Origin: Flavobacteriales bacterium
GTDB taxonomy: Bacteria > Bacteroidota > Bacteroidia > Flavobacteriales_E > Vicingaceae
Reading direction: 5' to 3'
Length of the DNA: 64,000 nucleotides
NCBI GenBank assembly: GCA_002706365.1
Contig: PALM01000008.1
Location: forward strand, 1 to 64,000
Both the position numbers and the translations under genes were made by a program. Shown piece after piece: positions 10,201 through 63,445 of this stretch. Every line of letters begins with the position of its first letter. Within the stretch, counting starts at the first letter, position 1. The notes beneath the pieces were generated by a model. It had not been told where the DNA came from. It ran no database searches and worked only from the letters and a program-made list of their open reading frames with translations.

Positions 10201-10256
10201 AGTCTAACTCTAGGTTCCTTTTTCAGATTTCTGATCTCTGATTTCTGATTTTCTCC
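10201..10256. repeat. Heptad array at 3' end of type IX cargo gene
   Basis: Eight 7-bp units in register (AGTCTAA, CTCTAGG, then TTCTGAT-type units) end at the stop codon of the minus-strand gene (10256-10258). They are purine-rich on that gene's sense strand. Confidence 0.8.
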
Positions 10257-12483: not shown

Positions 12484-12939
12484 TTGATTGGGATTGGCTT
12501 GAATCCAAGCACAGCCGACGACAAAAAACCTGATCAAACTATTTCCAGAATGATGGGCTTTGCCCAAAGATGCGGCTTTGATGGCTTCATTATGCTGAAC
12601 CTATATCCAAAGCGCACCCCCTTCCCTAATAAACTGCCAAAACGATCAAATGCCGAGATGGCAGATGAAAACCGCCGACTCATTAAAGATTTCCTCAAAA
12701 ATTACCCTAATGGAAGCTTATTAGCCGCCTGGGGATCCAACATTGAGGTAAGACCATACCTTAAAACCGAACTGAAAAGGATCGTATCAGATACACAGGA
12801 TTCTAATCATCAATGGCTACAAATTGGCGACTTAACAAAATCCGGACACCCCAGACACCCTTCTAGAGCGGCTTATTCAATGGGACTGAATGAATTCGAT
12901 ATTGAGGCTTATCTTGAGATGTTAGATGTTAGATGTTAG
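12484..12939 (+). CDS. DUF1643 protein with missing normal start
   Basis: A DUF1643-family protein of unknown function: LIGIGLNPSTAD, GFIMLNLYPKR and GHPRHPSRA are its characteristic blocks. The listed TTG start cuts off the conserved N-terminal strand. The frame stays open back to 12379 and reads LEYKIDIYQTNADNSVRFAL, as expected for the family, yet contains no ATG, GTG or TTG. The most likely true start is the ATC codon at 12388, six bases after the preceding gene's stop, which suggests an ATG-to-ATC change or a rare non-canonical start. The C-terminus (EMLDVRC) is encoded by the first units of a heptad array. Confidence 0.75.
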   Translation: MIGIGLNPSTADDKKPDQTISRMMGFAQRCGFDGFIMLNLYPKRTPFPNKLPKRSNAEMADENRRLIKDFLKNYPNGSLLAAWGSNIEVRPYLKTELKRIVSDTQDSNHQWLQIGDLTKSGHPRHPSRAAYSMGLNEFDIEAYLEMLDVRC

Positions 12940-13020
12940 ATAGTTCCAAAAAAGTCTAAAATCTAATATCTTCCTTCACATTTCACATTTCATAATTCAC
13001 ATTTCGTAACTATCTTCACT
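12916..13020. repeat. 15-unit heptad array spanning a gene end and the next promoter
   Basis: Fifteen 7-bp units in unbroken register. The first units (GAGATGT, TAGATGT twice, TAGATAG) include the last codons and stop of the DUF1643 gene and are purine-rich. Later units (AAAATCT, AATATCT, CATTTCA twice, TAATTCA, CATTTCG) are pyrimidine-rich and end 16 bp before the SPFH start codon. The two halves are partly complementary and could pair in RNA. Confidence 0.9.
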
Positions 13021-13036
13021 AAAAATAATTTAACCC

Positions 13037-13975
13037 ATGGATCCCCTATTTATTCTGCTCATCATTGGAGTCATTATCTTACTCCTATCATTCTTTATCG
13101 TAAAGCAACAAACTGCCGCCATCATTGAAACCTTTGGTCGCTTTAGCAGTGTGCGAAACTCTGGTTTGCAATTAAAGATCCCTTTGATCCAAAGAGTTGC
13201 AGGTCGTATAAGTCTAAAGATCCAACAGCTTGATGTGATCGTAGAGACCAAAACCAAAGACGATGTATTTGTGAAGCTCAAAGTTTCTGTACAATACAAA
13301 GTGATCAATGATAAAGTTTATGATGCATTTTACAAGCTTGATTATCCTCAAGATCAGATCACTTCTTATGTATTTGATGTAGTGAGAGCTGAAGTTCCAA
13401 AGATGAAATTGGATGATGTGTTCGTAAAGAAAGATGATATCGCTATCGCAGTGAAGAGCGAACTCAATGATGCCATGCTCGATTATGGATATGATATCAT
13501 TAAGACCCTTGTAACCGACATCGACCCTGATGCACAAGTAAAAGCTGCAATGAACCGCATCAATGCTTCTGAGCGTGAAAAGATCGCCGCTCAATTCGAG
13601 GGTGATGCGGCTAGGATCCTTATTGTGGAGAAAGCAAAGGCCGAGGCTGAGAGTAAGCGTCTGCAAGGACAGGGAATTGCGGATCAAAGAAGAGAGATTG
13701 CCAGAGGTCTTGAAGAGTCTGTTGAAGTACTTAACAAAGTAGGTATCAATTCTCAAGAAGCTTCTGCTCTAATTGTAGTTACTCAACACTATGACACCTT
13801 GCAGTCGATTGGAGAAGAGACCAACACCAATTTGATCCTTCTTCCTAATTCACCTCAAGCCGGTTCTGATATGCTCAACAATATGGTAGCTAGCTTTACT
13901 GCAAGTAACCAAATTGGTGAAGCCATGAAGCAACAGAAAGCAAAAAAAGGCAAAGGTGGAAGTACTGAAGCCTAG
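13037..13975 (+). CDS. SPFH/Band 7 (stomatin-like) membrane protein
   Basis: A 312-residue prohibitin/stomatin-type protein. One N-terminal transmembrane helix (about residues 1-20) is followed by the SPFH domain (QQTAAIIETFGRFSSVRNSG, then a TKTKDDVFVKLKVSVQYKV core). A coiled-coil helix with IAAQFEGDAARILIVEKAKA and a Gly/Lys-rich tail end it. Family members assemble into large membrane-associated rings or cages that organise microdomains and regulate proteases. The gene is followed after 12 bp by a bestrophin-type channel gene, so a shared membrane role is plausible. Confidence 0.92.
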   Translation: MDPLFILLIIGVIILLLSFFIVKQQTAAIIETFGRFSSVRNSGLQLKIPLIQRVAGRISLKIQQLDVIVETKTKDDVFVKLKVSVQYKVINDKVYDAFYKLDYPQDQITSYVFDVVRAEVPKMKLDDVFVKKDDIAIAVKSELNDAMLDYGYDIIKTLVTDIDPDAQVKAAMNRINASEREKIAAQFEGDAARILIVEKAKAEAESKRLQGQGIADQRREIARGLEESVEVLNKVGINSQEASALIVVTQHYDTLQSIGEETNTNLILLPNSPQAGSDMLNNMVASFTASNQIGEAMKQQKAKKGKGGSTEA

Positions 13976-14851: not shown

Positions 14852-15965
14852 AGTCCTAGTCGTATTCTTATGCTTTACTCTTTTCGCTTGCGACAATAGC
14901 AAGCCCGAATTCGAAGCATGGCATAAAAAGCAGAAAACTAAAAAGGGAAGTGAGGGAGAATCTTCTCTGAATTCAGCTGATTTCTATTCTACAGACTTGC
15001 TCATAGATAAAGTATATCGCTCTATGCAAGGTCCTTTTGAGATCAAAAGCGTTCAGGTCGACGCAGAAAAGGATGAGCTGCTCTGGATCGTGGGATACGA
15101 AAGTGAAGTATTGCAGGCCGAAAGTGATGTAGCCTTAGGTGCTGACTTCATGTGCCATAATAACCTAGATTATGCACATCCGGAAAACCTGCCCTGGAAA
15201 CTCAAAACTTCCGGTGCGAATCATCGCATATTCACATTAAGTCAGGGCCAAAGTGAACTGAAATTTCCCGAAGGATTTGGTATTCCCATTCCTGCAAATC
15301 AACCATTGAATATGGTTTCTCAAGTGCTAAATCACCATCGTCCGGAACTCTTCATAAACACTAGGCATCATGCACAATTGCATTATCTAAAAGAAAGCGA
15401 AGTAAAAGAAGAGATGACTCCCTTATATCAACAAGCAGTTTTTGTGACCAAGCAGATCGATGGTTCTGATGGTGCGCATGGACTCCCATTGACTTGTCTA
15501 CCCTATCATGATCATCCTGATAGTTCAGTAAAAGCAGATGTACAACACGATTGCTCAATCAAGTATGATGAAAAGGCCAAATACAATCCTTATGAGGATG
15601 AATATGGAAGAAAGTACACCGGACATTGGGTGTTGCCTAATGAACCTGAAACCCTTTCTACAGATGTGAGCCAAATGCTGGATCTAAAGGAAGACAGTCG
15701 CATTCATTTGATCAGTGTGCATTTGCACCCATTTGCAGAAGCACTTGAACTGTGGGATCGCACTAGCGACAGCTTGCTCTATGCGGCTAGCTTCAAAAAA
15801 GACAGCATCAATTTTGGATTTGAGTCGATCGACTATTACAGCAGTAAGACTGGTATCCCCGTTTTCAAAGACCATCAATATGAATTGATTAGCGCTTACC
15901 ACTGCACTGATACTTCTGATCAACATACTGCAATGGCAGTAATGTATCTTTATTTGAGAGATTAG
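14835..15965 (+). CDS. Lipoprotein resembling PHM-type copper monooxygenase
   Basis: A 376-residue protein with a lipoprotein signal (lipobox LFAC). The start at 14835 is chosen because it gives this signal; it overlaps the bestrophin gene. The second half resembles the C-terminal domain of peptidylglycine alpha-hydroxylating monooxygenase. H-L-H at residues 296-298 matches the His-x-His copper ligands, and a Met in TAMAVMYLYL (Met367) matches the Met ligand. Candidates for the other copper site are His108 in MCHNN and His183 in AQLHYL. A metal-dependent oxygenase or an inactive relative anchored to a membrane is therefore plausible. The match is by eye, overall similarity is low, and substrate is unknown. 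Confidence 0.6.
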   Translation: MSFLNRVLVVFLCFTLFACDNSKPEFEAWHKKQKTKKGSEGESSLNSADFYSTDLLIDKVYRSMQGPFEIKSVQVDAEKDELLWIVGYESEVLQAESDVALGADFMCHNNLDYAHPENLPWKLKTSGANHRIFTLSQGQSELKFPEGFGIPIPANQPLNMVSQVLNHHRPELFINTRHHAQLHYLKESEVKEEMTPLYQQAVFVTKQIDGSDGAHGLPLTCLPYHDHPDSSVKADVQHDCSIKYDEKAKYNPYEDEYGRKYTGHWVLPNEPETLSTDVSQMLDLKEDSRIHLISVHLHPFAEALELWDRTSDSLLYAASFKKDSINFGFESIDYYSSKTGIPVFKDHQYELISAYHCTDTSDQHTAMAVMYLYLRD

Positions 15966-15991
15966 AGTCTAGAATCTAGAGTCTAGACAAT
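15964..15991. repeat. CTAG heptad module on stop codon of PHM-like gene
   Basis: Units AGAGTCT, AGAATCT, AGAGTCT and AGACAAT start within the TAG stop codon (15963-15965). It belongs to the same module family as those at 19833, 20817, 31293 and 44516. Confidence 0.8.
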
Positions 15992-16098
15992 TTTCGTTTG
16001 AGAGAATAGTATAGTTCTATATTGTGCACGGAGTCTGGAGTCAATGTTCTAGACAAATTTAGTTTGAGAGAAAAGTTTAGTTCTAAATTGCGCACGGA
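15983..16098. repeat. 66-bp direct duplication
   Basis: Two imperfect copies (15983-16031 and 16049-16098, offset 66 bp) share TCTAGACAA, GTTTGAGAGA, AGTTCTA and a CACGGA end. They lie in the convergent spacer between the PHM-like gene and rpsA. Confidence 0.75.
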
Positions 16099-16112
16099 CA
16101 ACATGTCCGCGC
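16091..16112. repeat. 22-bp dispersed palindromic sequence, copy 1
   Basis: Contains CGGACA-ACA-TGTCCG, flanked by GC-rich ends. The exact reverse complement of all 22 bp lies at 54902-54923. Confidence 0.85.
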
Positions 16113-16133
16113 GAACACATTTAGTGCTGAATT

Positions 16134-16175
16134 AAATCTAGGTTCTAGGCTCTAGACTCTAGGTTCTAAACCTGA
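16134..16175. repeat. CTAG heptad array 3' of rpsA
   Basis: Six units (AAATCTA, GGTTCTA, GGCTCTA, GACTCTA, GGTTCTA, AACCTGA). On the rpsA sense strand it reads as TAGAACC-type units, in the same orientation to the gene as the modules at plus-strand gene ends. Confidence 0.8.
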
Positions 16176-16183
16176 CTTACTTC

Positions 16184-16218
16184 AAAAAAAATAGCCTGAC
16201 GAAATACGCCAGGCTATT
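16184..16218 (-). terminator. Intrinsic terminator of rpsA
   Basis: The stem AATAGCCTG/CAGGCTATT (16190-16198 with 16210-16218) is followed on the minus strand by eight T residues (A-run 16184-16191 on plus). It begins 20 bp after the rpsA stop. Confidence 0.9.
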
Positions 16219-16238
16219 AAATCTATCAGTTAAAAGAA

Positions 16239-18624: not shown

Positions 18625-19854
18625 ATGAAGCAATTCGATATTCCCACTTTTTATCGCTCTTCTTTTATCAGCAAGATCAAAGAGAAGCGCAAGATTACAG
18701 ATCCTAGGAAGAAAGACTTCAGTCCTACCCTCATTCAGTTTGGGGAAGTTGAATTCCTTATTGCCCGTCATTTTGGTTTTTGCTATGGTGTGGAGAATGC
18801 CATTGAGATCGCTTATAAAGCGGTAGAGGAAAATCCCGGTAAAACCATTTACCTTTTGAGTCAGATGATCCATAATCCGGCCGTGAATAACGATCTAAGA
18901 GCAAATGGTATTCGATTTATTATGGATACTCAGGGCAATCAATTCATCCCCTGGGAAGAGATCCATTCTGATGATATCGTAATCATTCCCGCTTTTGGCA
19001 CTACAAAGGAAACAATGAAGATTCTCGAAGAAAAGGGCATCGAGGTACAACGTTATGATACCACTTGTCCGTTCGTGACCAAAGTCTGGAAACAATCTGA
19101 TAAGCTCGGAAAGAAAGGCTATACGGTTATCATTCATGGCAAACCTCGTCATGAAGAAACCCGAGCAACTTTCTCACATTCATCTGATTCTGCTAAGTCT
19201 ATTGTGGTGTGTGATATGAAAGAAGCTCAGATACTAGCTAAGTTTATCACAGGCGAACTGCCTCTTTTTGAATTCGAGAATTATTTCAAGGAGCAAATGA
19301 GCGAAGGCTTTGATCCGGAAATCGATCTGCAGAAAGTGGGCGTAGTCAATCAAACGACAATGCTGGCTTCAGATACACAGGCTATTGCCGACTTTTTTAA
19401 AGGAGTGATGCTGAGTAAATATGGCAATGAGAATATCGCAGAACACTTCGCCGACAGTCGCGATACACTCTGCTATGCTACTAACGACAATCAACAAGCA
19501 ACTTATGGTCTGCTTGAAGAGTCGGCAGATCTATCTATTGTAGTAGGAGGTTTCAATTCTTCAAATACTTCACATTTGGTAGAGCTATGTGAGGAAAAAC
19601 TTCCGACTTATTTTATTTCTTCCGCTGAAGAGATCGTTTCTGATCGATTAATTCGTCACTACGATTATCGTCGCAAAGTGATGCTAAGCACTAAGAATTA
19701 CCTAGGAGAGAATAGACCATTGCGCATCATCCTCACTTCCGGCGCTTCTTGTCCGGATGCAGTGGTGGATCGTGTTCTAGACCGCTTGTTGGCTTTCTTT
19801 GAGACGAACGTTTCTAAGGAGGAGATATTGGAGAACCTAGAATCAAGAACCTAG
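18625..19854 (+). CDS. ispH: 4-hydroxy-3-methylbut-2-enyl diphosphate reductase
   Basis: IspH/LytB, the last enzyme of the non-mevalonate (MEP) isoprenoid pathway, converts HMBPP to IPP and DMAPP with a 4Fe-4S cluster. At 409 residues it is the extended form usual in Bacteroidota. The three cluster cysteines are in HFGFCYGVENA, TTCPFVTKVW and SGASCPDAVVDR, and HGKPRHEET supplies the substrate-binding His. The last residues (NLESRT) and the TAG stop come from a CTAG heptad module, a tail shared with the next gene's unrelated product. It is divergent from rpsA and monocistronic. Confidence 0.96.
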   Translation: MKQFDIPTFYRSSFISKIKEKRKITDPRKKDFSPTLIQFGEVEFLIARHFGFCYGVENAIEIAYKAVEENPGKTIYLLSQMIHNPAVNNDLRANGIRFIMDTQGNQFIPWEEIHSDDIVIIPAFGTTKETMKILEEKGIEVQRYDTTCPFVTKVWKQSDKLGKKGYTVIIHGKPRHEETRATFSHSSDSAKSIVVCDMKEAQILAKFITGELPLFEFENYFKEQMSEGFDPEIDLQKVGVVNQTTMLASDTQAIADFFKGVMLSKYGNENIAEHFADSRDTLCYATNDNQQATYGLLEESADLSIVVGGFNSSNTSHLVELCEEKLPTYFISSAEEIVSDRLIRHYDYRRKVMLSTKNYLGENRPLRIILTSGASCPDAVVDRVLDRLLAFFETNVSKEEILENLESRT

Positions 19855-19867
19855 AGTCTAGACTCTT
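19833..19867. repeat. CTAG heptad module at ispH 3' end
   Basis: Five units in register: GAACCTA, GAATCAA, GAACCTA, GAGTCTA, GACTCTT. The in-frame TAG stop (19852-19854) is inside the module. Confidence 0.88.
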
Positions 19868-20385: not shown

Positions 20386-20838
20386 ATGAAATACTCCCAT
20401 ACAATTACCATAGATCTCCCATTAGAGAAAGTTATTGAGCTGTTCGACAGCAAAGAGAATATGTACAAATGGCAAAAAGGACTGCAATCTGTAGAGCATA
20501 TTAGAGGTGATGAAGGCAAGGTAGGTGCAAAATCAAAGCTCTTCTACAAAATGGGTAAGCGTGAGATGGAAATGATCGAAACCATCACTAAGATGAACTT
20601 ACCTGATATGATGGAAAGCACTTATGATGCAAATGGAGTTCACAATATTCAACAGAATTACTTCAGAGATGCAGGAGATGGAAAAACCGAATGGCAGTCA
20701 GACAGTGAATTCCAATTCTCGGGCTTTATGAAATTCATCTATCCTTTGATGAAAGGGGCTTTTAAGAAGCAATCGTTGTCATTTATGAAGGATTTTAAGG
20801 AGTTTGCGGAAAATGAGAGCCTAGAATCTAGAACCTAG
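20386..20838 (+). CDS. SRPBCC/START-like lipid-binding-fold protein
   Basis: A 150-residue helix-grip protein of the SRPBCC (Bet v1/START) type. The N-terminal strand MKYSHTITIDLPLEKVIELF and the aromatic residue pattern ending in a long C-terminal helix fit this fold. Such proteins bind hydrophobic ligands in a central cavity, and the ligand is unknown. No signal peptide is present. It ends ESLESRT, where the last residues are encoded by the CTAG heptad module, as in IspH. It is convergent with cmk. Confidence 0.85.
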   Translation: MKYSHTITIDLPLEKVIELFDSKENMYKWQKGLQSVEHIRGDEGKVGAKSKLFYKMGKREMEMIETITKMNLPDMMESTYDANGVHNIQQNYFRDAGDGKTEWQSDSEFQFSGFMKFIYPLMKGAFKKQSLSFMKDFKEFAENESLESRT

Positions 20839-20851
20839 AATCTAGACTCTT
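20817..20851. repeat. CTAG heptad module at SRPBCC gene 3' end
   Basis: Five units: GAGCCTA, GAATCTA, GAACCTA, GAATCTA, GACTCTT. The TAG stop of the SRPBCC gene (20836-20838) lies inside. Confidence 0.88.
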
Positions 20852-28825: not shown

Positions 28826-30127
28826 TTATTTTTCTACTGGATGTGGTATCAATTCATTCTCGGTATAAGCAACCGTTGTGGCCACTGTAGCATCTCCCGT
28901 AACGTTTACAACTGTTCTGCACATATCGAGCGGACGGTCGACTGCAAAGATCAATGAGATTCCCTCCAATGGCACTCCCACAGAACCTAAAACAATGGCC
29001 AACATAATGATTCCGGCACCCGGTACGGCAGCCGATCCTATAGAGGCCAAAGTTGCTGTGAGCACAATAGTCAGCTGGTCGGCAAGATCAAGGTCCATGC
29101 CATAAACTTGCGCAATGAAAACTGCGGCTACGGCCTGATAACAGGAAGTGCCATCCATATTGATGGTGGCCCCCAATGGAAGTACAAAACTGGCTACCTT
29201 ATTCGACACCCCTAACTTCTCTTCACATCTCTCCATCGTCAGTGGCAAGGTGGCTGCTGAAGAGCTAGTTGAAAAGGCCAGTAATTGAGCGGGAGCAATT
29301 CCCTTGAAGAATTCGCGATAAGAGAAACCCGCAAGGAACTTCAAGATCATTGGGTAGATCAAGAAAACCATCAAGGCTAAACCTATAAGTACGGTTATTG
29401 AATAAATTGCGAGACCCTTCAAGATCTCCAATGCTGCTGCCGGATCCTCTCCAGCCAACTCGACCATGATGTTCCCCAAGAGGGCAAAGACCCCAATGGG
29501 AGCGAAATACATGATGATATCAACCATCTTTAAGATCACTTCATTGGCCCCATCAAAGAAATCCTTGACTGCCTGGGTTTTGGATGCATCGGGAGCAATG
29601 ATGAGCGCGATACCAAAGAGCAAGGCAAAGAATATCACTTGCAACATATTGCGGTTGTTTCCCGAAGCGTAAAAGATATTTGCCGGCACCATATCTACCA
29701 AGAACTGTAGTGGGCCGCTTTCTTTCTGTGCTTGGGCTTGCTCTTCAGTACTCTTTACTTTGGCCTCATTTTGAGCTACCATCTCAGTTCTCACTTCTTC
29801 TGAAAAGCTTTTCCCTGGTTTGATCACATTCACTACCAAGAGTCCGATAGTTACCGCAATCACGGTAGTTATTAGATAAAATCCAATGGTCTTTCCGCCC
29901 ATGGAAGAGAGCTGGGCAATGTCTTTTAAACCCGAAATACCATTCACCAAGGAGATCAATACCAAAGGCACGGCAATCATTTTTAGCATATTGATGAAGA
30001 TGGTTCCCCAAGGCGCGATCCAATCGGCCGTAAACTCTTGCCAGCCCGAATTAGCGGCTAAAAGGCCGTAAAGTAACCCAAGAACTAATCCAATAATGAT
30101 CTGCCAGTGTAGTGCTAATTTCTTCAT
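28826..30127 (-). CDS. Dicarboxylate/amino acid:cation symporter (DAACS)
   Basis: A 433-residue secondary transporter of the GltP/DctA family. The re-entrant loop TSSSAATLPLT, the TM7 motif NMDGT, and the TM8 segment DRPLDMCRTVVNVTGDA are all present, and these bind substrate and Na+ or H+. The Arg in MCRTVVN is the residue that favours acidic substrates (glutamate, aspartate or C4-dicarboxylates). An inserted charged loop after TM3 (about residues 105-130) is Gln/Glu-rich. It is first in a minus-strand run and divergent from aroC. Confidence 0.93.
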   Translation of the reverse strand: MKKLALHWQIIIGLVLGLLYGLLAANSGWQEFTADWIAPWGTIFINMLKMIAVPLVLISLVNGISGLKDIAQLSSMGGKTIGFYLITTVIAVTIGLLVVNVIKPGKSFSEEVRTEMVAQNEAKVKSTEEQAQAQKESGPLQFLVDMVPANIFYASGNNRNMLQVIFFALLFGIALIIAPDASKTQAVKDFFDGANEVILKMVDIIMYFAPIGVFALLGNIMVELAGEDPAAALEILKGLAIYSITVLIGLALMVFLIYPMILKFLAGFSYREFFKGIAPAQLLAFSTSSSAATLPLTMERCEEKLGVSNKVASFVLPLGATINMDGTSCYQAVAAVFIAQVYGMDLDLADQLTIVLTATLASIGSAAVPGAGIIMLAIVLGSVGVPLEGISLIFAVDRPLDMCRTVVNVTGDATVATTVAYTENELIPHPVEK

Positions 30128-30221: not shown

Positions 30222-31313
30222 ATGAAGGGAAATACATTTGGCAAAGCATTTCAACTCCACACCTTTGGTGAATCTCATGGCGAAGCTATTGGCGGCATGA
30301 TCGATGGCTGTCCGGCCGGAATCAAGCTAGACCTAGCTAAGATCCAGCTAGCGTTGGACCGCAGAAAGCCCGGACAATCAAAGCTGACTACCCAGCGAAA
30401 GGAAAGCGATAAGGTGCAATTCCTATCCGGCATCTTCGAAGGCCAAACTACCGGCACCCCAATTGGCTTTATCATCCCCAATGAAGATGCCAAGTCGAAA
30501 GATTACTCCCATATCAAAGACACCTATCGACCTTCCCATGCCGACTATGTATACGAAGCTAAATATGGCATTCGCGATTACAGAGGAGGCGGTAGAGCCT
30601 CTGCCAGAGAGACAGCTTGTAGGGTTGTAGGTGGAGCCATTGCTCAGCAAGTACTCGATCAAATTGGTGTGAAGATCTACTCTTATGTACAGCAGGTGGG
30701 GAATATCAGTCTGGTCAAGGATTTTAAGGAATTGGACCTAGATTCGATCTATGAGAATGATATGCGTTGTCCGGATGCGGATACCGAAAAGAAGATGGTC
30801 GATTTGATTGAAGCTGTTAGAAAAGAAGGCGACACCCTTGGTGGATGCATTCAAACCTTGGTTCAAGGTGTACCAGCAGGCTGGGGAGAACCGGTTTTTG
30901 ATAAGTTACACGCCGATCTGGCCAAAGCCATGATGAGTATAAATGCAGTAAAAGGATTCGAATACGGATCGGGATTTTGTTCAGCAGAGATGAAAGGCTC
31001 AGCACACAATGACCCTTTTGAGTTTGTGGATGATAAGATCAGGACCTCAAGCAATCTCTCCGGAGGTATTCAAGGTGGCATCAGCAATGGAGAAGATATT
31101 TATTTCAGAACAGCATTCAAGCCGGTAGCTACCATTATGAAAGACCAAGAATCAGTGGATAAGAGTGGCGCAAAAACCACGGTTAAAGGCAAAGGCCGAC
31201 ATGACGTATGTGTGCTCCCTCGTGCTGTTCCTATTGTAGATGCGATGACGGCTTTGGTGCTTGTGGAGCACTTCCTTCGTCAGCGCTCCCAGAACCTAGA
31301 ACCTAGAATCTAG
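30222..31313 (+). CDS. aroC: Chorismate synthase
   Basis: A 363-residue FMN-dependent enzyme that makes chorismate from EPSP in the shikimate pathway. The signatures [18 protein letters not shown], the [16 protein letters not shown] block and [13 protein letters not shown] are intact and length is standard. The C-terminal tail NLEPRI and its TAG stop are encoded by a CTAG heptad module, so the last residues are not native to the family. It stands alone in its transcription unit. Confidence 0.97.
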
Positions 31314-31327
31314 AGCCTAGACACTTC
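31293..31327. repeat. CTAG heptad module at aroC 3' end
   Basis: Five units: GAACCTA twice, GAATCTA, GAGCCTA, GACACTT. The aroC TAG stop (31311-31313) lies inside. Confidence 0.88.
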
Positions 31328-31447: not shown

Positions 31448-31601
31448 TAGTCGGCGGCGAATAAAATCAGCGTTATCAGCAGAAAACTTAAAAAGATTCC
31501 ATCACATTTTCACATTGATACCCTTCGGCGGAGTTCATCCTGAGCTTGTCGAAGGGCTCAGGGCAAGCATTTCATATTTAATTCCAGTCTTTACTCTTTG
31601 A

Positions 31602-31678
31602 GATTTTAGATGTTAGAGTTTAGATATTAGACAATTCTAAAACCCTTCTAAACTCTAAAATCTAATCTCTAAGCTCTT
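31602..31678. repeat. Two-armed heptad array between aroC and hutI
   Basis: Eleven units in register. The first five (GATTTTA, GATGTTA, GAGTTTA, GATATTA, GACAATT) are purine-rich. The last six (CCTTCTA, AACTCTA, AAATCTA, ATCTCTA and so on) are pyrimidine-rich. TAGAGTTTAGA (31614-31624) is exactly inverted as TCTAAACTCTA (31647-31657). Confidence 0.88.
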
Positions 31679-37315: not shown

Positions 37316-37555
37316 GGCTATCCTTCTACGCTAGCACTTAGGCTAAAGCTTCAGTGCTCGAGGAAAGCTTCGAAGGACGAGGAGTGCAGCTAAAGTGCAT
37401 GGTTTTTTATTAAAAACTTAGTCCTTTCTACACTGAGGACATTGAGAAGGCACTGAGATCACAGAGTTAAACTTTTAGATATGAGTCTGTCTTAATTCAG
37501 GATTTAATTCTAATTGATACATTTTCACATTTACTCATTGATATATTTCCTTACT

Positions 37556-37605
37556 CCTTACTCTTTCATCCTTCGAAGCTCAACGAGCGTAGAAGGACTT
37601 ACTCC
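37556..37605. repeat. 50-bp direct repeat, upstream copy
   Basis: Identical over 50 bp to 39401-39450. The core is a hairpin with CCTTC/GAAGG ends flanked by CTTACTC heptads. The two copies flank the arylsulfotransferase gene. Confidence 0.92.
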
Positions 37606-39302: not shown

Positions 39303-39400
39303 TACTGATAAGCACTCTGAAACTCTTTACCCTTTATCATTACTCCCTACTTATCACCCCGAGCGGAGCGCTGCACTGAGCCTGTCTAAGTGTCGAGGGG

Positions 39401-39450
39401 CCTTACTCTTTCATCCTTCGAAGCTCAACGAGCGTAGAAGGACTTACTCC
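39401..39450. repeat. 50-bp direct repeat, downstream copy
   Basis: Identical to 37556-37605. It lies 99 bp after the arylsulfotransferase stop codon. Confidence 0.92.
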
Positions 39451-39493
39451 CTTCTCCCTTCTCCCAAATCCCACATTTGCTTTATCTTAGCAA
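39445..39493. repeat. Heptad array leading into the TPR gene start
   Basis: Seven units: TACTCCC, TTCTCCC twice, AAATCCC, ACATTTG, CTTTATC, TTAGCAA. It ends 1 bp before the ATG and includes the putative -7 box. Confidence 0.75.
39483..39490 (+). promoter_or_regulatory. Candidate -7 box of TPR gene
   Basis: TATCTTAG lies 4 bp before the ATG at 39495, the same layout as before ftcD, yitT and the GNAT gene. Confidence 0.4.
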
Positions 39494-39494
39494 G

Positions 39495-40637
39495 ATGAAT
39501 AGATTTCTGCTTATAAGCATTGTAATTCTTACTACAGCCTTCCAAACACAAGCACAAAGCGAAGTAGACTCTTTAATGAAACTGCACCAATACGATCTTG
39601 CGATTGATGAATTGGAGGGTGCAGTCAGTCTCGATATACAGGGACAACAAAAGCTAGCTGAGGCATATTTGAAATCGGGTAGATTATATCGCGCACTTGA
39701 CAGCTACAAAAAGCTATATAAAGCAGATAGTAACAACTCACATTTACTTCAACAAGCTATCATACTTGAAAAGCTAGATGAAGAATCAGAAGCATTGAAG
39801 GTATATGTCAAACTAAATGGATTAGCTCCTAATAACGCCTACTACTGGAAGCTCACAGCTAAATCGGCCTTAAAGAATTCCGAATATCCATTATCACTCG
39901 CAGCATGGAATGCTGTACTTGAGAGGTCACCAAACGACCTAGAGGCAATCAACAAAATGGCATTGCTATACAACAAGCTTGACCAGGCAGAACTAGCAGA
40001 TAGTCTTTTAAAGGAGGGATTAAAGCTATCTCCAGAATCTAGATTCCTGAAAAGCAGTCGGCTTAAAGTTCTTTATAGGCAAAGAAAATACGCTGAAGCA
40101 GTTAAGATCTCAGAAGAATTATTTGCTCAAGCTGATAGTAATCTAGTACATCAAAAAGTAGCTGGAATATCTAATTATCATATTGAGAATTATCAAAAGA
40201 CTATTGATCTTTTGTCAAATGTGATTGAGGTCGAAACTGAATCAGATCTACTGCATTACTACATAGGATTAGCCTACCGTGATTCCGGGGATAAGGAAAA
40301 GGCGGCAGAATATTTAGAAAAGGCCATTGAATTGGGAGTGACAAAGAATCTTGGAAACTACTATACTCAATTGGCAGTGAGCTATGAAGAAGCAGGAGAA
40401 ACTGCCAAAGCCATTCAGGCCTATAAGGTGGCCTATTCCGAATCCAAAGACAAGGTCCTACTCTACCATTTGGCTCGCAATTACGACAGCTATTACAAAG
40501 ACAAAAAAGTGGCACTATCTTACTATGAGAAGTACCTTCAAGAGAAGGATACGGCCAATGAGTATTTGATGAATTATTCTAAGCATAGAATACAGGAGTT
40601 GAAGAATGCGGCGCATTTTGAAAACGGATCCTTTTAA
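39495..40637 (+). CDS. Exported tetratricopeptide-repeat protein
   Basis: A 380-residue protein with a signal peptide ending in QTQAQ and about nine to ten TPR motifs (A-x-x-x-x-x-A-x-x-x-P pattern, e.g. LNGLAPNNAYYW, AYRDSGDKEKAAEYLEKAIEL). TPRs mediate protein-protein contacts. It is predicted periplasmic and its partner is unknown. The start at 39495 is chosen over 39477 because it gives a cleaner signal peptide and a -7 box just upstream. Confidence 0.85.
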   Translation: MNRFLLISIVILTTAFQTQAQSEVDSLMKLHQYDLAIDELEGAVSLDIQGQQKLAEAYLKSGRLYRALDSYKKLYKADSNNSHLLQQAIILEKLDEESEALKVYVKLNGLAPNNAYYWKLTAKSALKNSEYPLSLAAWNAVLERSPNDLEAINKMALLYNKLDQAELADSLLKEGLKLSPESRFLKSSRLKVLYRQRKYAEAVKISEELFAQADSNLVHQKVAGISNYHIENYQKTIDLLSNVIEVETESDLLHYYIGLAYRDSGDKEKAAEYLEKAIELGVTKNLGNYYTQLAVSYEEAGETAKAIQAYKVAYSESKDKVLLYHLARNYDSYYKDKKVALSYYEKYLQEKDTANEYLMNYSKHRIQELKNAAHFENGSF

Positions 40638-43586: not shown

Positions 43587-44516
43587 TTGAAGCAGAAAAC
43601 CATAAGTATTGTCGGTTTTGGAAATGTTGGCCGTTTTATTTGCGCCCAGCTAATACCATACACAAATAGCGCTTTAAAGATCAACTTGATGGATCCTGAT
43701 GAAAGTGTTCATGGTGCGATCTTGGATTTTCTGCATGGCTTAGAGTTATTCCCTGAGCATCAAATACACTTTAACGATGAAGAGCTCTTTAATAGCTCTG
43801 ATATAATTTTTCATTGCGCTGGGGCTTCAGTTCCTAAAGGACAAAGCAGGCTAATCAGTTGTACAGAATCTATTGCAATTGCAGAAGCTGTCTATTCAAA
43901 TTATCAAGCCAAAGAGTCGGCAAAGATCATAGTTGTGGCCAATCCAGTAGAGATCATCGCTTCAGTCAGTCGAAAGCTTAGCGGTCTTCCACATTCTCAT
44001 GTATTGGGTATTGGCACCTATTTAGACTCGATACGAATGGATTATTTGATTCGGGATTCAATGCCTGAACTGAATAATATCAATGCAGTTGTAATTGGCG
44101 AGCACGGTAGTACGGCCTTTTTGAGTAACAGCTTGTCGAGCATAGATGGAAAGCCAATCGAATCCATTCTGAATGTTGAAGAAATTGAAGATTTAGAAGC
44201 TAGAATGAGAACAGCCAAAGATGATATCAAAGCAACCCAAGCTGCAACCATTTATGGTGTTGGTTATTGCGCTATGCAGGTATTTTACGCTTTAATGGGA
44301 GATCTAGAACTAAAGGTAGCTGCATCGACAGCAATTCCAGATTTCTTAAGAAAGGATTTAGGTGAAGCTGACATCTACCTCAGCTTGTATTCTAGAATTA
44401 ATGAACATGGAATTCAGCCAATTGAACATAGCTATTCTGGGACTGAAATCGAGAAACTCAAGAAATCTCGTGATCTGATAGTCTCTTGTATTCCTAAGAG
44501 CTACTTGACTCCATAG
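43587..44516 (+). CDS. LDH/MDH-superfamily NAD-dependent 2-hydroxyacid dehydrogenase
   Basis: A 309-residue L-lactate/malate dehydrogenase-like protein. The Rossmann start SIVGFGNVG, NPVE, the catalytic LDSIR segment (Asp and Arg) and GEHGST (catalytic His) are all present. The substrate-specificity loop reads CAGASVPKGQSRL. The position that is Gln in LDH and Arg in MDH appears to be neither, so the keto-acid used is uncertain. There is no ATG, and the frame opens with TTG at 43587 after an in-frame stop at 43554. The stop codon abuts a palindromic CTAG heptad module. Confidence 0.8.
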   Translation: MKQKTISIVGFGNVGRFICAQLIPYTNSALKINLMDPDESVHGAILDFLHGLELFPEHQIHFNDEELFNSSDIIFHCAGASVPKGQSRLISCTESIAIAEAVYSNYQAKESAKIIVVANPVEIIASVSRKLSGLPHSHVLGIGTYLDSIRMDYLIRDSMPELNNINAVVIGEHGSTAFLSNSLSSIDGKPIESILNVEEIEDLEARMRTAKDDIKATQAATIYGVGYCAMQVFYALMGDLELKVAASTAIPDFLRKDLGEADIYLSLYSRINEHGIQPIEHSYSGTEIEKLKKSRDLIVSCIPKSYLTP

Positions 44517-44543
44517 AACCTAGAGTCTAGATTCTAGACTCTT
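44516..44543. repeat. Palindromic CTAG heptad module between convergent genes
   Basis: Four units: GAACCTA, GAGTCTA, GATTCTA, GACTCTT. AGAGTCTAGA (44522-44531) pairs with TCTAGACTCT (44533-44542). It touches the stop codons of both convergent genes and could serve as a shared 3' hairpin, though it lacks a T-run. Confidence 0.85.
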
Positions 44544-45141
44544 AGCGTCTACTTTTCGGATTCCACATCACAATGATCTGAACCATAATTGCCAACGCAA
44601 TTAGCACGTAGATCTCGATCTTAGTGAAGAGTTCCACATCCTCAATAGCCTTGCGACTTATATTGAGTTGCCTTTCCCCCTCTTCAAGTTGAATACTTGA
44701 TAGTATCCTTAGATCCTGATTGATCAATTCCAACTGTTTAATCACAGCCTTATCATCTGCATAACCATTCTTCTGATAAGCGCGTTCAAAACCTTCTAGT
44801 TCTTCTAGATGATCCTCAAAGTCTCTAAGTACTTTTTCTTCTTTCTGGGTGAGTTCTGTTTGTGAAAAACGGTCGACCAGATCCTTGATCTTCAAGCTAA
44901 CACTTTCATTCTTTGTCGAGAAAAATGCGGTATCTCCCTTGGCAACGGCCACTTCTTTCTCATTGACCTCAACGATTATATCGAAGATGTAACTTTTAGC
45001 CATCAATCTATCCTCATAGATGTTCTCAACCGATTCTTTCATTCGGAGATAACTGTCCTTATCGATCAGATTGGTTGCGGCAATAACCCCAAACACCATT
45101 AGAATTCCCAGGATCCATTTCACTTTATTAAAGAAGCTCAT
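44542..45141 (-). CDS. Membrane protein with MCP-like four-helix-bundle domain
   Basis: A 199-residue protein. An N-terminal transmembrane helix (about 8-27), a periplasmic four-helix bundle (about 30-170) like the ligand-binding region of chemoreceptors (4HB_MCP), and a second transmembrane helix (about 172-192) are seen, then only WNPKSRR in the cytosol. There is no HAMP or signalling domain, so it cannot act as a receptor alone. It may report through a partner or be a structural envelope protein. Confidence 0.78.
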   Translation of the reverse strand: MSFFNKVKWILGILMVFGVIAATNLIDKDSYLRMKESVENIYEDRLMAKSYIFDIIVEVNEKEVAVAKGDTAFFSTKNESVSLKIKDLVDRFSQTELTQKEEKVLRDFEDHLEELEGFERAYQKNGYADDKAVIKQLELINQDLRILSSIQLEEGERQLNISRKAIEDVELFTKIEIYVLIALAIMVQIIVMWNPKSRR

Positions 45142-52783: not shown

Positions 52784-53042
52784 TTAGGAGAGTTAAGAAT
52801 ACTTGAAGTATTTGAAATACTTGGAGTTTCTTTATTCTCCCGCAGATTAGCGCTGATGTGCTTAGGATTCCGCAGATCTTTTATTCGTTATTTAATTCGA
52901 TTTATAGCATTCCAAGAATCAGCGGGATTTGCGAAATAAATCTGCGAAATCAGCGGGAAAAAGACAAGCGTTATAATATTGTCAAATTTCATATCCCACA
53001 TCCCATCTCCCTTATCCGAAAATTCCGATCTATCTTTACCCC
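52784..53042. other. Spacer with purine then pyrimidine heptads
   Basis: No gene. After the stop codon, purine-rich units (TTAGGAG, GAGTTAA, TTGAAGT type) run to about 52835. A CCCGCAGATTAGCGCTGAT repeat and its inverted partner AATCAGCGGG (about 52839-52960) form a large imperfect hairpin. Pyrimidine-rich units (ATATCCC, ACATCCC, ATCTCCC) precede the GNAT start. Confidence 0.6.
53031..53038 (+). promoter_or_regulatory. Candidate -7 box of GNAT gene
   Basis: TATCTTTA lies 4 bp before the ATG at 53043. Confidence 0.4.
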
Positions 53043-53567
53043 ATGTCTTATCAAATCCGCATAGAAACCCCTCGCCTAATCATGCGCGAGTTCCGCGAAG
53101 AAGATGCAGAAGCCCTTTTCGAGATGGAATCCGACCCAATAGTGCTTACATATCTGGAGGTAGAACCATTAAAGAAGTTGGATGAGATCTACCCAATTAT
53201 TGAGCGCGTTCAAAAGCAGTATGAGGACAATGGAACCGGTCGTTGGGTGATGATCGAGAAGTCGAGTGGTGAACTAATGGGCTGGACTGGTCTAAAATTA
53301 GAGCCCTTGGAAACCAATGGGTTCACCAATTACTATGATCTGGGATACCGTATGATCCCACGCTATTGGGGGAAGGGCTATGCCACCGAGAGCGCCCTAG
53401 CCTCTGTAGACTATGGTTTTAATGAGTTAAATTTGGAGAAGATCAATGGTGGTGCGGATGTAAAGAACATTGCCTCTAATCGAGTATTGCAGAAAGCTGG
53501 ACTTGAATTAGTAGAAGTTTTTGATCATTGGAATAGACCCCATAATTGGTATGAACTAAATCGCTAA
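53043..53567 (+). CDS. RimJ/RimL-type GNAT N-acetyltransferase
   Basis: A 174-residue acetyl-CoA-dependent transferase. IETPRLIMREFREEDAEAL is the typical start. The acetyl-CoA pyrophosphate loop is YWGKGYATESA, and late NIASNRVLQKAGL is characteristic of the RimJ/RimL branch, which acetylates protein N-termini, amino sugars or antibiotics. The acceptor is unknown. Its stop is 2 bp before the next gene's ATG. Confidence 0.92.
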   Translation: MSYQIRIETPRLIMREFREEDAEALFEMESDPIVLTYLEVEPLKKLDEIYPIIERVQKQYEDNGTGRWVMIEKSSGELMGWTGLKLEPLETNGFTNYYDLGYRMIPRYWGKGYATESALASVDYGFNELNLEKINGGADVKNIASNRVLQKAGLELVEVFDHWNRPHNWYELNR

Positions 53568-54760: not shown

Positions 54761-54876
54761 AGCTTGGAGTTTGGAGTAAGGTGTAAGGAAGCTAGATGCC
54801 GAAAGCTGGAGGCTAGAGATTCGATAGCCGATAGCCGATAGCCGATAGCCGATAGCCGATAGCCGATAGCCGAAAC
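54758..54876. repeat. 17-unit heptad array starting at a stop codon
   Basis: Seventeen 7-bp units without indel. It begins TAGAGCT (the TAG is the stop), then TGGAGTT, TGGAGTA, AGGTGTA, AGGAAGC, TAGATGC, CGAAAGC, TGGAGGC, TAGAGAT, then seven perfect CGATAGC units (54821-54869), then CGAAACT. Confidence 0.95.
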
Positions 54877-54901
54877 TTCAGAATTTTCATTTTGAACGAT
54901 A

Positions 54902-54923
54902 GCGCGGACATGTTGTCCGTGCG
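54902..54923. repeat. 22-bp dispersed palindromic sequence, copy 2 (inverted)
   Basis: Exact reverse complement of 16091-16112, with the CGGACA-TGT-TGTCCG core. A T-run (54925-54930) follows, so it may also act as a weak terminator. Confidence 0.85.
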
Positions 54924-56559: not shown

Positions 56560-56671
56560 TTCTCCTTAATCCTTACTCCCACATCCCAACTCCTTACCCC
56601 TTACCCCTTACCCCTTACTCCATTCTTCTAACTAAATATTTCACATTTCACATCTGATCCTCATTATTCCC
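56560..56671. repeat. 16-unit heptad array upstream of the RND pump gene
   Basis: Sixteen units in unbroken register: TTCTCCT, TAATCCT, TACTCCC, ACATCCC, AACTCCT, TACCCCT three times, TACTCCA, TTCTTCT and onward to TATTTCA, CATTTCA. It is pyrimidine-rich on the sense strand and ends 44 bp before the start codon. Confidence 0.92.
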
Positions 56672-56715: not shown

Positions 56716-59700
56716 ATGATAGACCAAATTATTCGTTTTAGTCTCAAGAACAAACTGCTGGTCTTTCTATTCAGTATGGCGATTGTGGCCTTTGGACTCT
56801 ACTCTTTGAGTCATATCTCAATCGGTGCGGTACCTGACATTACCAATAATCAGGTTCAGATCATTACCACTTCCAGAAACCTAGCCACAGAAGATGTAGA
56901 ACGATTTATAACCTATCCGATTGAGTTAGAGATGGCCAATCTTCCGAATGTGAAGGAGATCCGCTCAGTTTCCAAATTTGGGCTCTCGGTAGTAACCGTG
57001 GTCTTTGATGATGAGATTGGCACTTACCTGCCAAGACAGTTGATCGCTGAGAAGATCAAATCGGCTTCTGAGAATATTCCTGAGCAGTTTGGAAAACCCT
57101 TTATGGGACCAATCTCTACCGGTCTAGGTGAAATCTATCAGTATGTGCTCGAAGTAGACTCTGCTCATCAAGGTGATTATGATCTAATGGAGCTTCGAAC
57201 CATACAAGATTGGATCGTGAGACGTCAACTTTCCGGCATTCCCGGGGTAGTAGAGGTGAATACCTGGGGTGGTTATCTGAAACAATATGAGGTGGCAGTA
57301 GATCCGGTGAGGTTGAGAAATCTAAACCTCTCCTTAGCTGAAGTGTATCAAGCCCTTCAAAAAAATAATGATGTAGCGGGTGGAGGTTACATTGAGAAAG
57401 CTGAACAAAGCTACTTTGTAAGAGGTGAAGGTCTGGTTGAAAATCTGGAAGACATTGAACAGATCGTGATCAAAAATCGAAATGGAAACCCCATTTTTAT
57501 GCGAGATGTGGGAAAAGTGGGCTTTGGACATGCTATTAGATTTGGAGCCATTACCGGCAATGGTGAAGGAGAAAAAGTGATGGGACAGGTCATGATGCTC
57601 AAAGGAGCCAACTCCAAAGAGACCATTGATGCAGTTAAAGAACGAGTTGATCAGATCCAAGAATCCTTGCCACCGGGTGTAAGCATCAATGGGTTCCTTG
57701 AGCGCAGTGAATTAATCGGCAGAACCAGCTTTACCATTGCAGAAAACTTGATCCTCGGATGCTTGATCGTGATTTTCGTAGTGGTTATATTGCTAGGAAA
57801 CTTGCGCTCAGGTCTAGTAGTGGCCTCGGTAATTCCGCTAAGTTTACTCTTTGCACTTTCAATGATGTACTTATTCGGCATTGATGCCAATCTAATGAGC
57901 CTTGGAGCAATCGACTTCGGTATTATCATCGATGGAGCGGTGATCATTGTGGAGTTCATTTCCTTCAATATCAATTCAAAAAGAGAGGAGCTTGTCGCGC
58001 TTCCCTTGTCAGAGCGACAAGCATACAAGGATGGTATTGCAGAAAAGAGTGCTGAGAAAATGATGCACTCTGCAGTTTTCGGACAGCTTATCATTATCAT
58101 CGTATTCATACCCATCTTATCGCTGGTTGGTGTAGAAGGTAAAATGTTCAGACCAATGGCCATGGTCTTTTGCTTTGCCCTGGTAGGTGCCATGATGCTT
58201 TGTTTTACCTATGTGCCGGTGATGTCATCCTTGTTCATCAAGCCCTCCTCCCCTAACCCCAATTCATTTTACAACCGTCTTATCAGTTGGCTGCAAAGCA
58301 CCTATCGACCTATTATCCATTGGGCACTAGTTCGCAAGAAAATGGTGCTTAGCGGTGCCATTGCACTTTTGATTATTGCCGGCTTTATCTTTAGCAGAAT
58401 GGGTGGTGAATTCGTACCCACTCTGGACGAGGGCGACTTTGTGATCCAACCGGTGTTAAAGACCGGAACTTCCCTGGAAGCCACTGTGCAGATAATGACT
58501 AAAATCGAGGAGATCTTGATGGGATTTCCGGAGGTTGAGCAGGTAGTGAGCAGGATTGGAGCAGCTGAAGTCCCCACCGACCCTATGTCTATGGAGGAAA
58601 CCGATTGCATCATCAAACTGAGTCCGATCAGCGAATGGAAAAACGCAAGCAGTAAAGATGAATTGGCCGAAGTATTTAAAGACACCCTCAGTGTACTCCC
58701 TGGCATAGAATACGAATTCACTCAGCCCATAGAGATGCGCTTCAATGAATTGATCACTGGGGTAAGAGCAGACCTGGCCATCAAAATATTCGGTGAAGAC
58801 CTGGAGATCCTCTACGACAAAGCCCTAGAGGTAAGATCGATCATAGGGGGAATTGAAGGAGCTGCCGATATTACAGTGGAAAAGATCGAGGGATTACCGC
58901 AGATGACGGTTGATTATGATCGAAGTCGCATCGCTGCTTATGGATTGAACGTCAGCGATCTCAATCAGATCATCAGTATGGGATTTGCCGGTTTATCTGC
59001 CGGAACCGTATTGGAGGGTGAGAAGCTATTTGACCTAGTGGTACGGTTCGACAAAGAACATCATCAAAGTATAGAGGACCTTAGAAATGCGAGTATCCCT
59101 CTACCTAATGGCCGACAAATACCCTTGAGTGAGCTGGCAGATATTAGCTATCAGAAAGGTCCGGCTAAAATCTCAAGAGACGATACCAAGAGAAGGATCG
59201 TGGTGGGTGTGAATGTGAGAAACCGCGACCTGGAATCGGTGGTGGATGAGGCGAAGCAAAAAATTGCGAAAAATGTTAAACTTCCTGTTGGCTATAGTCT
59301 TGAGTATGGCGGACAGTTCGAAAATCTGGAAGCAGCTAGCAAGCGCCTTAGCTTAGCAGTACCAGTTGCCTTGCTCTTGATCTTTATCTTTCTATATTTC
59401 GCCTTCAATTCAACTAGAGATGCCTTGATCATATTCAGCGCAATTCCCCTCTCGGCAGTGGGTGGCATTATAATGCTTAGTTTAAGAGGAATGCCTTTTA
59501 GTATATCTGCAGGGGTGGGATTTATCGCACTCTTTGGTATTGCCGTACTGAATGGGATCGTACTAATTGAAGAATTCAAGGAGTTGAAAAATAAGGGCAT
59601 TGCAGACATCAATGAACGAATCATGCAAGGCACCCACAATCGACTCAGACCCGTTTTATTAACTGCCTCAGCAGCAGCTCTAGGATTCTTGCCCATGGCT

Positions 59701-62354: not shown

Positions 62355-62459
62355 CTCTCCTTACTACTTATTCCTTACTCCTTACTCCTTACTCCTTACT
62401 CCTTACTCCTTACTCCTAAATTCACATCTCATCTCCCAACTCCCAAATCCCTTATCTTT
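62355..62459. repeat. 15-unit heptad array ending at the yitT-like -7 box
   Basis: Fifteen units in register. TACTCCT is repeated exactly six times (62376-62417), followed by AAATTCA, CATCTCA, TCTCCCA, ACTCCCA, AATCCCT and TATCTTT. The last unit is the putative -7 box, and the ATG is at 62465. Confidence 0.95.
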
Positions 62460-62464: not shown

Positions 62465-63445
62465 ATGAATCCATTCTGGACAACGGTACTGCTAAAGCAG
62501 ATAAATAGAGGGAAATCAGCTAAAGACACGAAACAAAAAAGCAGCTCAGTTTCAGATTATCGACTGGGGAAAGCTTATCGAGAAATGAAGGTGGTTGCCA
62601 AGGGGAATGTCAAGGATTTTACCCTCATTCTCTTTGGTATTTTCTCCGCTGCTTTTGGCTTTAAAGGATTCTTGCTCACCAATCATTTCATTGATGGCGG
62701 AGCTACCGGTATTGCCCTGCTAACTTCCGCTGTAAGTGGCTACCCACTCTATCTTCTTATCATTCTGGTCAACCTTCCCTTTATCATCATGGGATATAAG
62801 ATCATGGGAAAACGCTTTACCGTCAAGACCGTCCTTGCCATTATCGGCTTGGCCATTATTCTTGCTTTAGTGGAATTTCCCAATGTCACCAACGATAATT
62901 TATTAGTTGCTGTATTTGGTGGCTTCTTTCTGGGAGCGGGCATTGGATTCTCGATCAGAGGAGGAGCAGTAATTGATGGTACAGAGATACTTGCCATTTA
63001 TATGAGTAGAAAGTTTGGAACTACCATCGGTGATATCATTATTATCATCAATGTGATCATCTTTCTTTCTGCGGCTTATCTTTTGGGTATCGATATTGCC
63101 CTATACTCCATGATCACCTATTTGGCAGCTTCAAGAACTCTGGATTTCATTGTAGAGGGATTGGATGAATACATTGGGGTAACCATCGTTTCAAATCACA
63201 GTGAAGACATTCGCAAAATGATCATCACCAAGCTGGGAAGAGGGGTAACCATTTATAAGGGTAAGAGAGGAATGACCAATCAGGGGGAAGATCAGGAAGT
63301 GGATATCGTCTACACTGTAATCACCCGTTTGGAAATCAACAAACTGAATTTGGAAGTCGAGAAGATCGAACCTTCTGCATTCATTGTCATGCATACCATC
63401 AAGGATACCAAGGGTGGTATGATCAAGAAGAAAGCGTTTAAGTAA
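62465..63445 (+). CDS. YitT-family membrane protein
   Basis: A 326-residue YitT (DUF161/DUF2179) protein. A basic cytosolic N-terminus of ~55 residues precedes about five or six transmembrane helices, with the family motif TNHFIDGGATGIALL and RGGAVIDGTEILAIY. The C-terminal DUF2179 domain has GRGVTIYKGKRGM. Function of the family is unknown; transport or sensing is proposed. The N-terminal extension with KQKSSSVSDYRLGK is longer than in Bacillus relatives. It stands alone. Confidence 0.9.
   Translation: MNPFWTTVLLKQINRGKSAKDTKQKSSSVSDYRLGKAYREMKVVAKGNVKDFTLILFGIFSAAFGFKGFLLTNHFIDGGATGIALLTSAVSGYPLYLLIILVNLPFIIMGYKIMGKRFTVKTVLAIIGLAIILALVEFPNVTNDNLLVAVFGGFFLGAGIGFSIRGGAVIDGTEILAIYMSRKFGTTIGDIIIIINVIIFLSAAYLLGIDIALYSMITYLAASRTLDFIVEGLDEYIGVTIVSNHSEDIRKMIITKLGRGVTIYKGKRGMTNQGEDQEVDIVYTVITRLEINKLNLEVEKIEPSAFIVMHTIKDTKGGMIKKKAFK

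Follow-up and report, generated by a model that had tools for sequence, protein, structure and literature searches.

Five-triplet purine arms with 7-nt spacing at gene ends of a Flavobacteriales bacterium: conserved position and polarity, replaceable words, and hairpins in about half of cases

Introduction

What are the seven-base arrays that lie at the ends of genes in this Flavobacteriales bacterium, and is it the hairpin that defines them? The question was raised by a 64,000-nt stretch of contig PALM01000008.1 (contig 8 of assembly GCA_002706365.1), referred to below, at its full length, as the window. The original prediction for this stretch was that purine-to-pyrimidine heptad arrays fold as long in-register RNA hairpins with similar loop-like middles, and that these hairpins may replace T-run terminators. 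Heptamer repeats at gene ends are known in Xanthomonas and in cyanobacteria, and they have no accepted function. Here we describe the arrays of the host genome, their placement, their pairing and their fate in related genomes.

Materials and Methods

The window belongs to a draft genome of about 3.0 Mb, and 1.22 Mb of its 3.02 Mb was analysed in stretches. The final 387 kb of this sample was picked around CTAGARY or TTAGAT matches, so that rates are near-unbiased only for the first 836 kb, which is itself tilted toward contigs with TTAGAT matches. Genes were called with a simple hexamer model, and the uncurated gene ends are accurate up to start-codon choice. The comparison set consisted of 46 genomes of the host's own family; G001 is a congener, and G003 and G006 represent two further genera. 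Folding was compared with 200 dinucleotide shuffles per stretch. Purine and pyrimidine arms are called R and Y arms, respectively, and stretches with a 7-nt period are called lag-7 segments.

Results

The periodicity of the arrays was specific to seven bases. At a score of 12, the first 836 kb contained 107 lag-7 segments and no more than 12 segments at each of the remaining lags of 4-13 and at 15; the whole 1.22 Mb, selected stretches included, contained 181 at lag 7, 17 at lag 6 and 0-9 at lags 4, 5, 8-13 and 15. Once aligned, these segments showed five triplets, AGA or AAA, with four bases between them, and their modal length was 31 nt (43 of 239 segments in the host and 12 of 67 in the congener G001). 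Runs of AGA at 7-nt spacing with four, five and six copies numbered 27, 93 and 5 in two samples combined (16, 44 and 4 in the first, and 11, 49 and 1 in the second), and 24, 90 and 5 when only spacers were counted, while ARA runs at spacings of 5, 6, 8, 9 and 10 showed no five-copy peak in the host. The corresponding counts in G001 were 15, 17 and 3, with the drop past five present and the peak less sharp than in the host; five-triplet arms also occurred in G003 and G006, mostly with GGA words. These length and copy-number statistics indicated that the basic object is the single arm and not the hairpin: a 31-nt unit in which a purine triplet, AGA in most cases and AAA or GGA in fewer, occurs five times at 7-nt spacing. 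The words filling it in the host include CTAGARY, TTAGANN, TGAAATN, AAATCNG and TAAGGNN, among others. AAATCAG and CAAGA words contain no stop codon, and the idea that one is present on every R strand was dropped for that reason. The window gave no match in Rfam.

Ordinary heptanucleotide microsatellites produced by replication slippage would have an exact 7-nt period, and heptamers are listed as the commonest long class of simple sequence repeats in many bacteria (Mrazek 2007, cited in PMC4679880). A few perfect or near-perfect runs were indeed found (CGATAGC x7.4, TTAGATG x7 and CTCCTTA x8), and in the TTAGA family identical neighbours were in excess (22% vs 13%), mainly through TTAGATG runs. 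Slippage is nevertheless contradicted for the AGA arms, because their copy number peaks at five with no fall-off and because adjacent CTAGARY units were identical in only 12% of cases, compared with 26% (sd 4%) after shuffling units among arrays; unlike neighbours are expected if copy number is held, and slippage predicts the opposite. The strict polarity and stop anchoring described below also speak against it. As an account of the arms we consider it very unlikely, and it may hold for the perfect runs. One of these, the CGATAGC x7.4 run at 54822-54873 of the window, is unlike the degenerate five-copy arms and is probably true slippage and may be a length-variable locus.

Arms of both types were mapped in the window. 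At the locus where the arrays were first described, an R arm with four AGA triplets and the TTAGATG word (12917-12940, plus strand) overlaps the 3' end of the upstream ORF (12484-12939) and provides its TAG stop. It pairs with a Y arm, GTCTAAAATCTAATATCT, at 12954-12971 (minus strand), and is followed by a second Y array with the word TTCACAT (12975-13005, minus strand), which is not its partner and lies upstream of the SPFH ORF starting at 13037. In the convergent spacer 15966-16238, a CTAGARY R arm with five AGA (15957-15987, plus strand) overlaps the stop at 15965, and its partner is a Y arm with five TCT (16137-16167, minus strand). Another pair is formed by a TTAGANN R arm with five AGA (31601-31631, plus strand) and a TCTAANN Y arm with five TCT (31647-31677, minus strand), and a compact palindromic CTAGARY array (44515-44542, plus strand) fills the entire convergent LDH/MCP spacer. 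Single R arms with five AGA on the plus strand contain the stop of the upstream ORF ending at 19854 (19832-19862) and a stop at 20838 (20816-20846), and another R arm with five AGA (31291-31321, plus strand) encodes the last residues of aroC, QNLEPRI, together with its stop. On the minus strand, a single arm with five ARA and the AAATCAG word (10221-10251) lies directly past the stop of a minus-strand gene ending at 10256. Minus-strand arms that read as Y on the plus strand precede genes: single arms with five RRA triplets at 39448-39478, just ahead of the gene at 39495, and at 52987-53017, ahead of the gene at 53043; an arm with five RGA triplets at 56563-56593, within a longer CTCCTTA array ahead of the gene at 56716; and two arrays at 62372-62457, CTCCTTA with seven triplets and CTCCCAA with five, ahead of the gene at 62465.

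Polarity was consistent across the sample. Among 167 arms near gene edges, the purine strand pointed outward from the gene in 145 and inward in 22, the ratio being 62:16 for single arms and 83:6 for arms of multi-arm spacers; in G001 it was 22:7 at 3' ends and 20:4 at 5' ends. An outward arm within 50 nt was present at 106 of 514 3' ends, at 35 of 334 5' ends in codirectional spacers and at 7 of 288 5' ends in divergent spacers. Array-free spacers had no purine skew, which ruled out a general purine/pyrimidine skew of spacers as the explanation. In 139 arm-bearing spacers between codirectional or convergent genes, a Y arm was never followed by an R arm, with the exception of one RYRY spacer. 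Measured from the end of the stop codon, arm starts clustered at -23, -2/-1, +3/+4 and +10, and the stop codon lay inside the arm in 35 genes, being TAG in 25 of them. The -23 class looks like arms in which the first in-array TAG was lost, so that translation would continue three heptads on to an in-frame TAG. Arm starts 23, 16, 9 or 2 bases ahead of the stop codon's end were seen, and several proteins, including that of the ORF at 12484-12939, seem to end in repeat-encoded residues.

With this polarity, RNA transcribed toward a gene carries the UC-containing Y strand, and Rho is encoded in the genome, as would suit a pyrimidine strand that serves as a Rho loading site and stops transcripts that arrive at a gene from elsewhere. 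CTAGARY arms are structured and not rich in C, arms are missing from divergent spacers, and single R arms at 3' ends give the sense RNA no Y strand, all of which makes such a role highly improbable.

Pairing between arms was then considered at the named spacers. The exact inverse pair, TAGAGTTTAGA at 31614 and TCTAAACTCTA at 31647, was found as claimed, as was the near-palindromic 21-mer AGAGTCTAGA-T-TCTAGACTCT at 44522-44542 in the LDH/MCP spacer. Stretches 12916-13020, 31602-31678 and 44517-44548 folded better than all 200 of their dinucleotide shuffles (z -4.2, -5.8 and -4.0, respectively). At the first of them the hairpin is confined to the first 55 bases (12917-12971), whereas the remaining array at 12975-13005 carries the TTCACAT word and does not match the purine arm. 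Nor is the pairing long and in register: since two positions per heptad vary independently between both arms, it consists of blocks of about 5 bp interrupted by mismatches of 1-2 nt. The middles, which had been described as similar, showed no general conservation; AGTTCCAAAAAA recurs only at 12942 and near position 108304 of contig C32.

Across the sample, two-armed spacers made up about half of cases, and a hairpin results when a spacer contains a second arm in inverted orientation. The arms of one spacer are related to each other: the R and Y arms used the same word family in 21 of 47 spacers, against 7.3 expected (reached in 0 of 10,000 permutations), and with all words considered same-locus arms paired better than permuted ones (-16.9 vs -13.9 kcal/mol; 42 of 10,000 permutations). 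The same comparison of pairing energies on 12 pairs of G001 was not significant. The spacer that precedes a pfkA-like gene shows a joint change of both arms, TTAGA/TCTAA in the host and AAAGA/TCTTT in G001, where a long REP-like palindrome lies between the arms, and all 13 TTAGA hairpin elements are ordered R to Y. Within one word family, by contrast, same-locus arms paired worse than cross-locus arms (permutation rank p = 0.006 for TTAGA and 0.008 for CTAGA), with the TTAGA deficit weakening to p = 0.08 when long TTAGATG runs were left out. Perfect 31-bp palindromes are unstable in bacteria, and this is a plausible reason for same-locus arms to avoid perfect pairing. Downstream complementarity was clear for arms with a partner (mean z -2.05) and slight for single arms (mean z -0.42, 16% at p<=0.05); none was detected on the wrong side of the arms. 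As a class, 3' ends with arrays were not more strongly folded than those without (mean z -1.28 and -1.56, respectively). Thus, the predicted purine-to-pyrimidine hairpin describes the named spacers and the R-then-Y order correctly and fails as a general rule, half of the arms having no complementary partner. With single arms partnerless, the hairpin is ruled out as a universal property; it is an optional extra in about half of cases.

Support for the replacement of T-run terminators was weak. Of 98 arm-bearing 3' ends, 13 had a terminator-like hairpin with a T-tract, as did 59 of 240 arm-free ones (p = 0.027), a modest reduction. Single and paired arms did not differ in this respect (12% and 15%, respectively), indicating that the replacer of terminators is not specifically the hairpin. 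No T-tract followed the Y arms (2.8 vs 3.1 T per 10 nt), and the spacer 15966-16238 contains its arrays together with a clear canonical T-run terminator (16190-16218, minus strand). Weighed against what an intrinsic terminator consists of, two-armed spacers have the stable hairpin, single arms do not, and the T-tract after the stem is absent. Two-armed elements share with bidirectional intrinsic terminators an A-rich 5' arm and a T-rich 3' arm between genes, and differ from them in a stem that is long, AU-rich and imperfect and has no T-tract; moreover, half of the elements are single-armed. These results suggest, weakly, that arms may partly stand in for terminators. That the elements are in essence long in-register RNA hairpins replacing intrinsic terminators, as originally predicted, is in agreement with the strong folds at the named spacers, the word family common to both arms, the joint change at the pfkA-like spacer and the uniform order of the TTAGA hairpins. 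The nearly partnerless single arms with the same terminator deficit, the ordinary folding of array-bearing 3' ends, the avoidance of perfect pairing and the missing T-tract make it unlikely.

Comparison with the congener separated the site from the word. In 167 reciprocal-best gene pairs, the two species shared 13 ends with arrays past the stop (odds ratio 20, p = 1.7e-7; the odds ratio ranged from 16 to 20 overall), and the association persisted when both spacers had to be at least 30, 60 or 90 nt long (p = 1e-5, 5e-4 and 8e-3, respectively). The words at these shared ends usually differed, CTAGARY in the host being replaced, for example, by CAAGA, AAAGA or GAAGT words in G001. Triple CTAGARY units numbered 193 in the host and 8 in G001, and the 44 remaining genomes of the family had none. 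Looser RGA pentads gave 54, 55 and 210 matches in G006, G052 and G031, counts that include long perfect runs, and were absent from some others. Around aroC, 31 loci in other bacteria were almost devoid of arrays, which indicates that array density is lineage-specific. Spacing, copy number, position and polarity are conserved, whereas the four bases that separate the triplets drift and, from one species to another, are exchanged wholesale.

The same comparison bears on an origin as dispersed selfish or insertion-derived repeats, in which 31-nt arms were inserted beside stop codons, where they do least harm, and serve no host function. In syntenic spacers with arms only in the host, the host spacer was a median of 86 nt longer than that of G001 (n=12), against 1 nt for arm-free spacers (n=43), and the CTAGARY counts mark a species-specific burst. 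Three-unit words common to different loci were somewhat above chance (13 vs 7.9, sd 2.9; 35 vs 25.5, sd 4.7), and the genome contains three Y1_Tnp matches, one of them with an internal stop. The genome has no RVT_1 match, so that an origin by reverse transcriptase was ruled out. Arms occupy the same gene ends in both species, no conserved middle or flank was found beyond the arm, and many word families share one architecture; in Xanthomonas and Nostoc, too, heptamer repeats were generally not associated with mobile elements (Rehm et al., 2015; PMC4692102). The tight stop placement and the copy number could, for their part, also stem from a specific insertion mechanism without host function. 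We regard insertion as a serious rival and rate it as somewhat improbable.

The closest published relatives are the GGGAATC repeats of Xanthomonas and the GGGGA(C/T)T repeats (GGGGAYT) of Nostoc PCC 7120 (Rehm et al., 2015; PMC4692102). They prefer four units, interpreted as forming a G-quadruplex, lie on the sense strand within 50 bp past stop codons or antisense upstream of ORFs, overlap stops and are scarce between divergent ORFs; those of Xanthomonas are often in convergent pairs. Sites are kept between two related species with changes of length, and in Xanthomonas transcript starts or stops were more frequent at heptamer repeats of the quadruplex type than at control repeats (PMC4692102). 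The host arms resemble the Xanthomonas repeats, which are taken here from the published description, and in part those of Nostoc, in the 7-nt period, the preferred fixed copy number, the polarity, the overlap with stops, the avoidance of divergent spacers, the convergent pairs (Xanthomonas) and the retention of sites in a related species. Unlike them, they are built on AGA, AAA or GGA, come in many word families in one genome with two degenerate unit positions, exchange their word between congeners and mostly have no capacity to form G-quadruplexes: the fixed copy number and positional polarity of the class are present and its G-tracts are not, with four GGG tracts in 3 of 227 arms and no GG at all in 141. 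That the same positional grammar is carried by words mostly unable to form quadruplexes speaks against quadruplex formation as its purpose. G-quadruplex elements of the kind proposed for GGGAATC, which this shared grammar would otherwise favour, are thus contradicted for most arms and scarcely credible as their explanation.

Other repeats are more distant. Excerpts of MacGregor (2015; PMC4679880) describe TAACTGA direct repeats in Beggiatoaceae, cyanobacteria and some Bacteroidetes, intergenic near gene ends and with indels in 7-nt steps, which in BOGUAY lie mostly just upstream of start codons. Unlike the host arms they are one fixed word, and those excerpts show no five-copy peak; TAACTGA was not among the array words of the host. 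The cyanobacterium Calothrix PCC 7601 is likewise cited in PMC4692102 as having tandem heptanucleotide repeats, a feature common to the host arms. REP/BIME elements are also dispersed, intergenic and at times in inverted pairs, whereas the host elements are periodic heptads with no GTAG-type tag seen, and REP-like palindromes occur separately in the same spacers.

Several further features were observed. A REP-like palindrome, CCTTCGAAGCTCAACGAGCGTAGAAGG, is embedded in CTCCTTA-type arrays with the same flanks at about 37550-37600 and 39395-39445 of the window, and an array edge similar to these loci is present near position 71240 of contig C20. A second palindrome family, around GGACAACATGTCC / GGACATGTTGTCC, occurs at about 16085-16110 and 54890-54915, in spacers that also have heptad arrays. 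The aroC gene (30222-31313), whose protein has its best named matches in Flavobacteriales and Cytophagales (60-66% identity), is inverted in place relative to its neighbour at 28826-30127, with the opposite orientation in G001, G003 and G006. Finally, G001 contains purine arrays with an 8-nt period (16 lag-8 segments, against 0 in the host at the same threshold), in stretches L132, L152, L154 and others, AAAGGAACAAAGGAAC being an example.

Discussion

We tentatively read the arms as gene-boundary elements distributed over the genome that would act at the transcript 3' end through a factor reading their spacing, the hairpin being optional, and assign this reading a probability of roughly 0.4. 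An arm would exert its effect at the end of the message, where a factor sensitive to the spacing and not to the word may read either the nascent purine-repeat RNA or the DNA repeat itself; Rho and a single RRM protein (C22:55833) are candidate readers encoded in the genome. Such reading could help to end or to stabilise the message. An inverted second arm in the same spacer would add an imperfect hairpin, possibly serving both directions. Against the boundary-element reading stand the 16 of 78 single arms near a gene edge that point the wrong way and the small size of the terminator depletion.

The host separates what is conserved in such repeats (spacing, count, direction and stop anchoring) from what is not (the word). 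New here is that the geometry, fixed count and polarity described for other gene-end heptamers are found with words that are mostly unable to form G-quadruplexes and are swapped between congeners. A bolder and more doubtful extension would be a word-independent boundary code, in which bacteria of different phyla mark gene ends by a set count of purine triplets at seven-base intervals, measured by a spacing-sensitive factor, while the words turn over like dialects. If this were true, the quadruplex reading of the Xanthomonas repeats would become a special case. The question of what reads these elements is directly testable in a cultivable relative.
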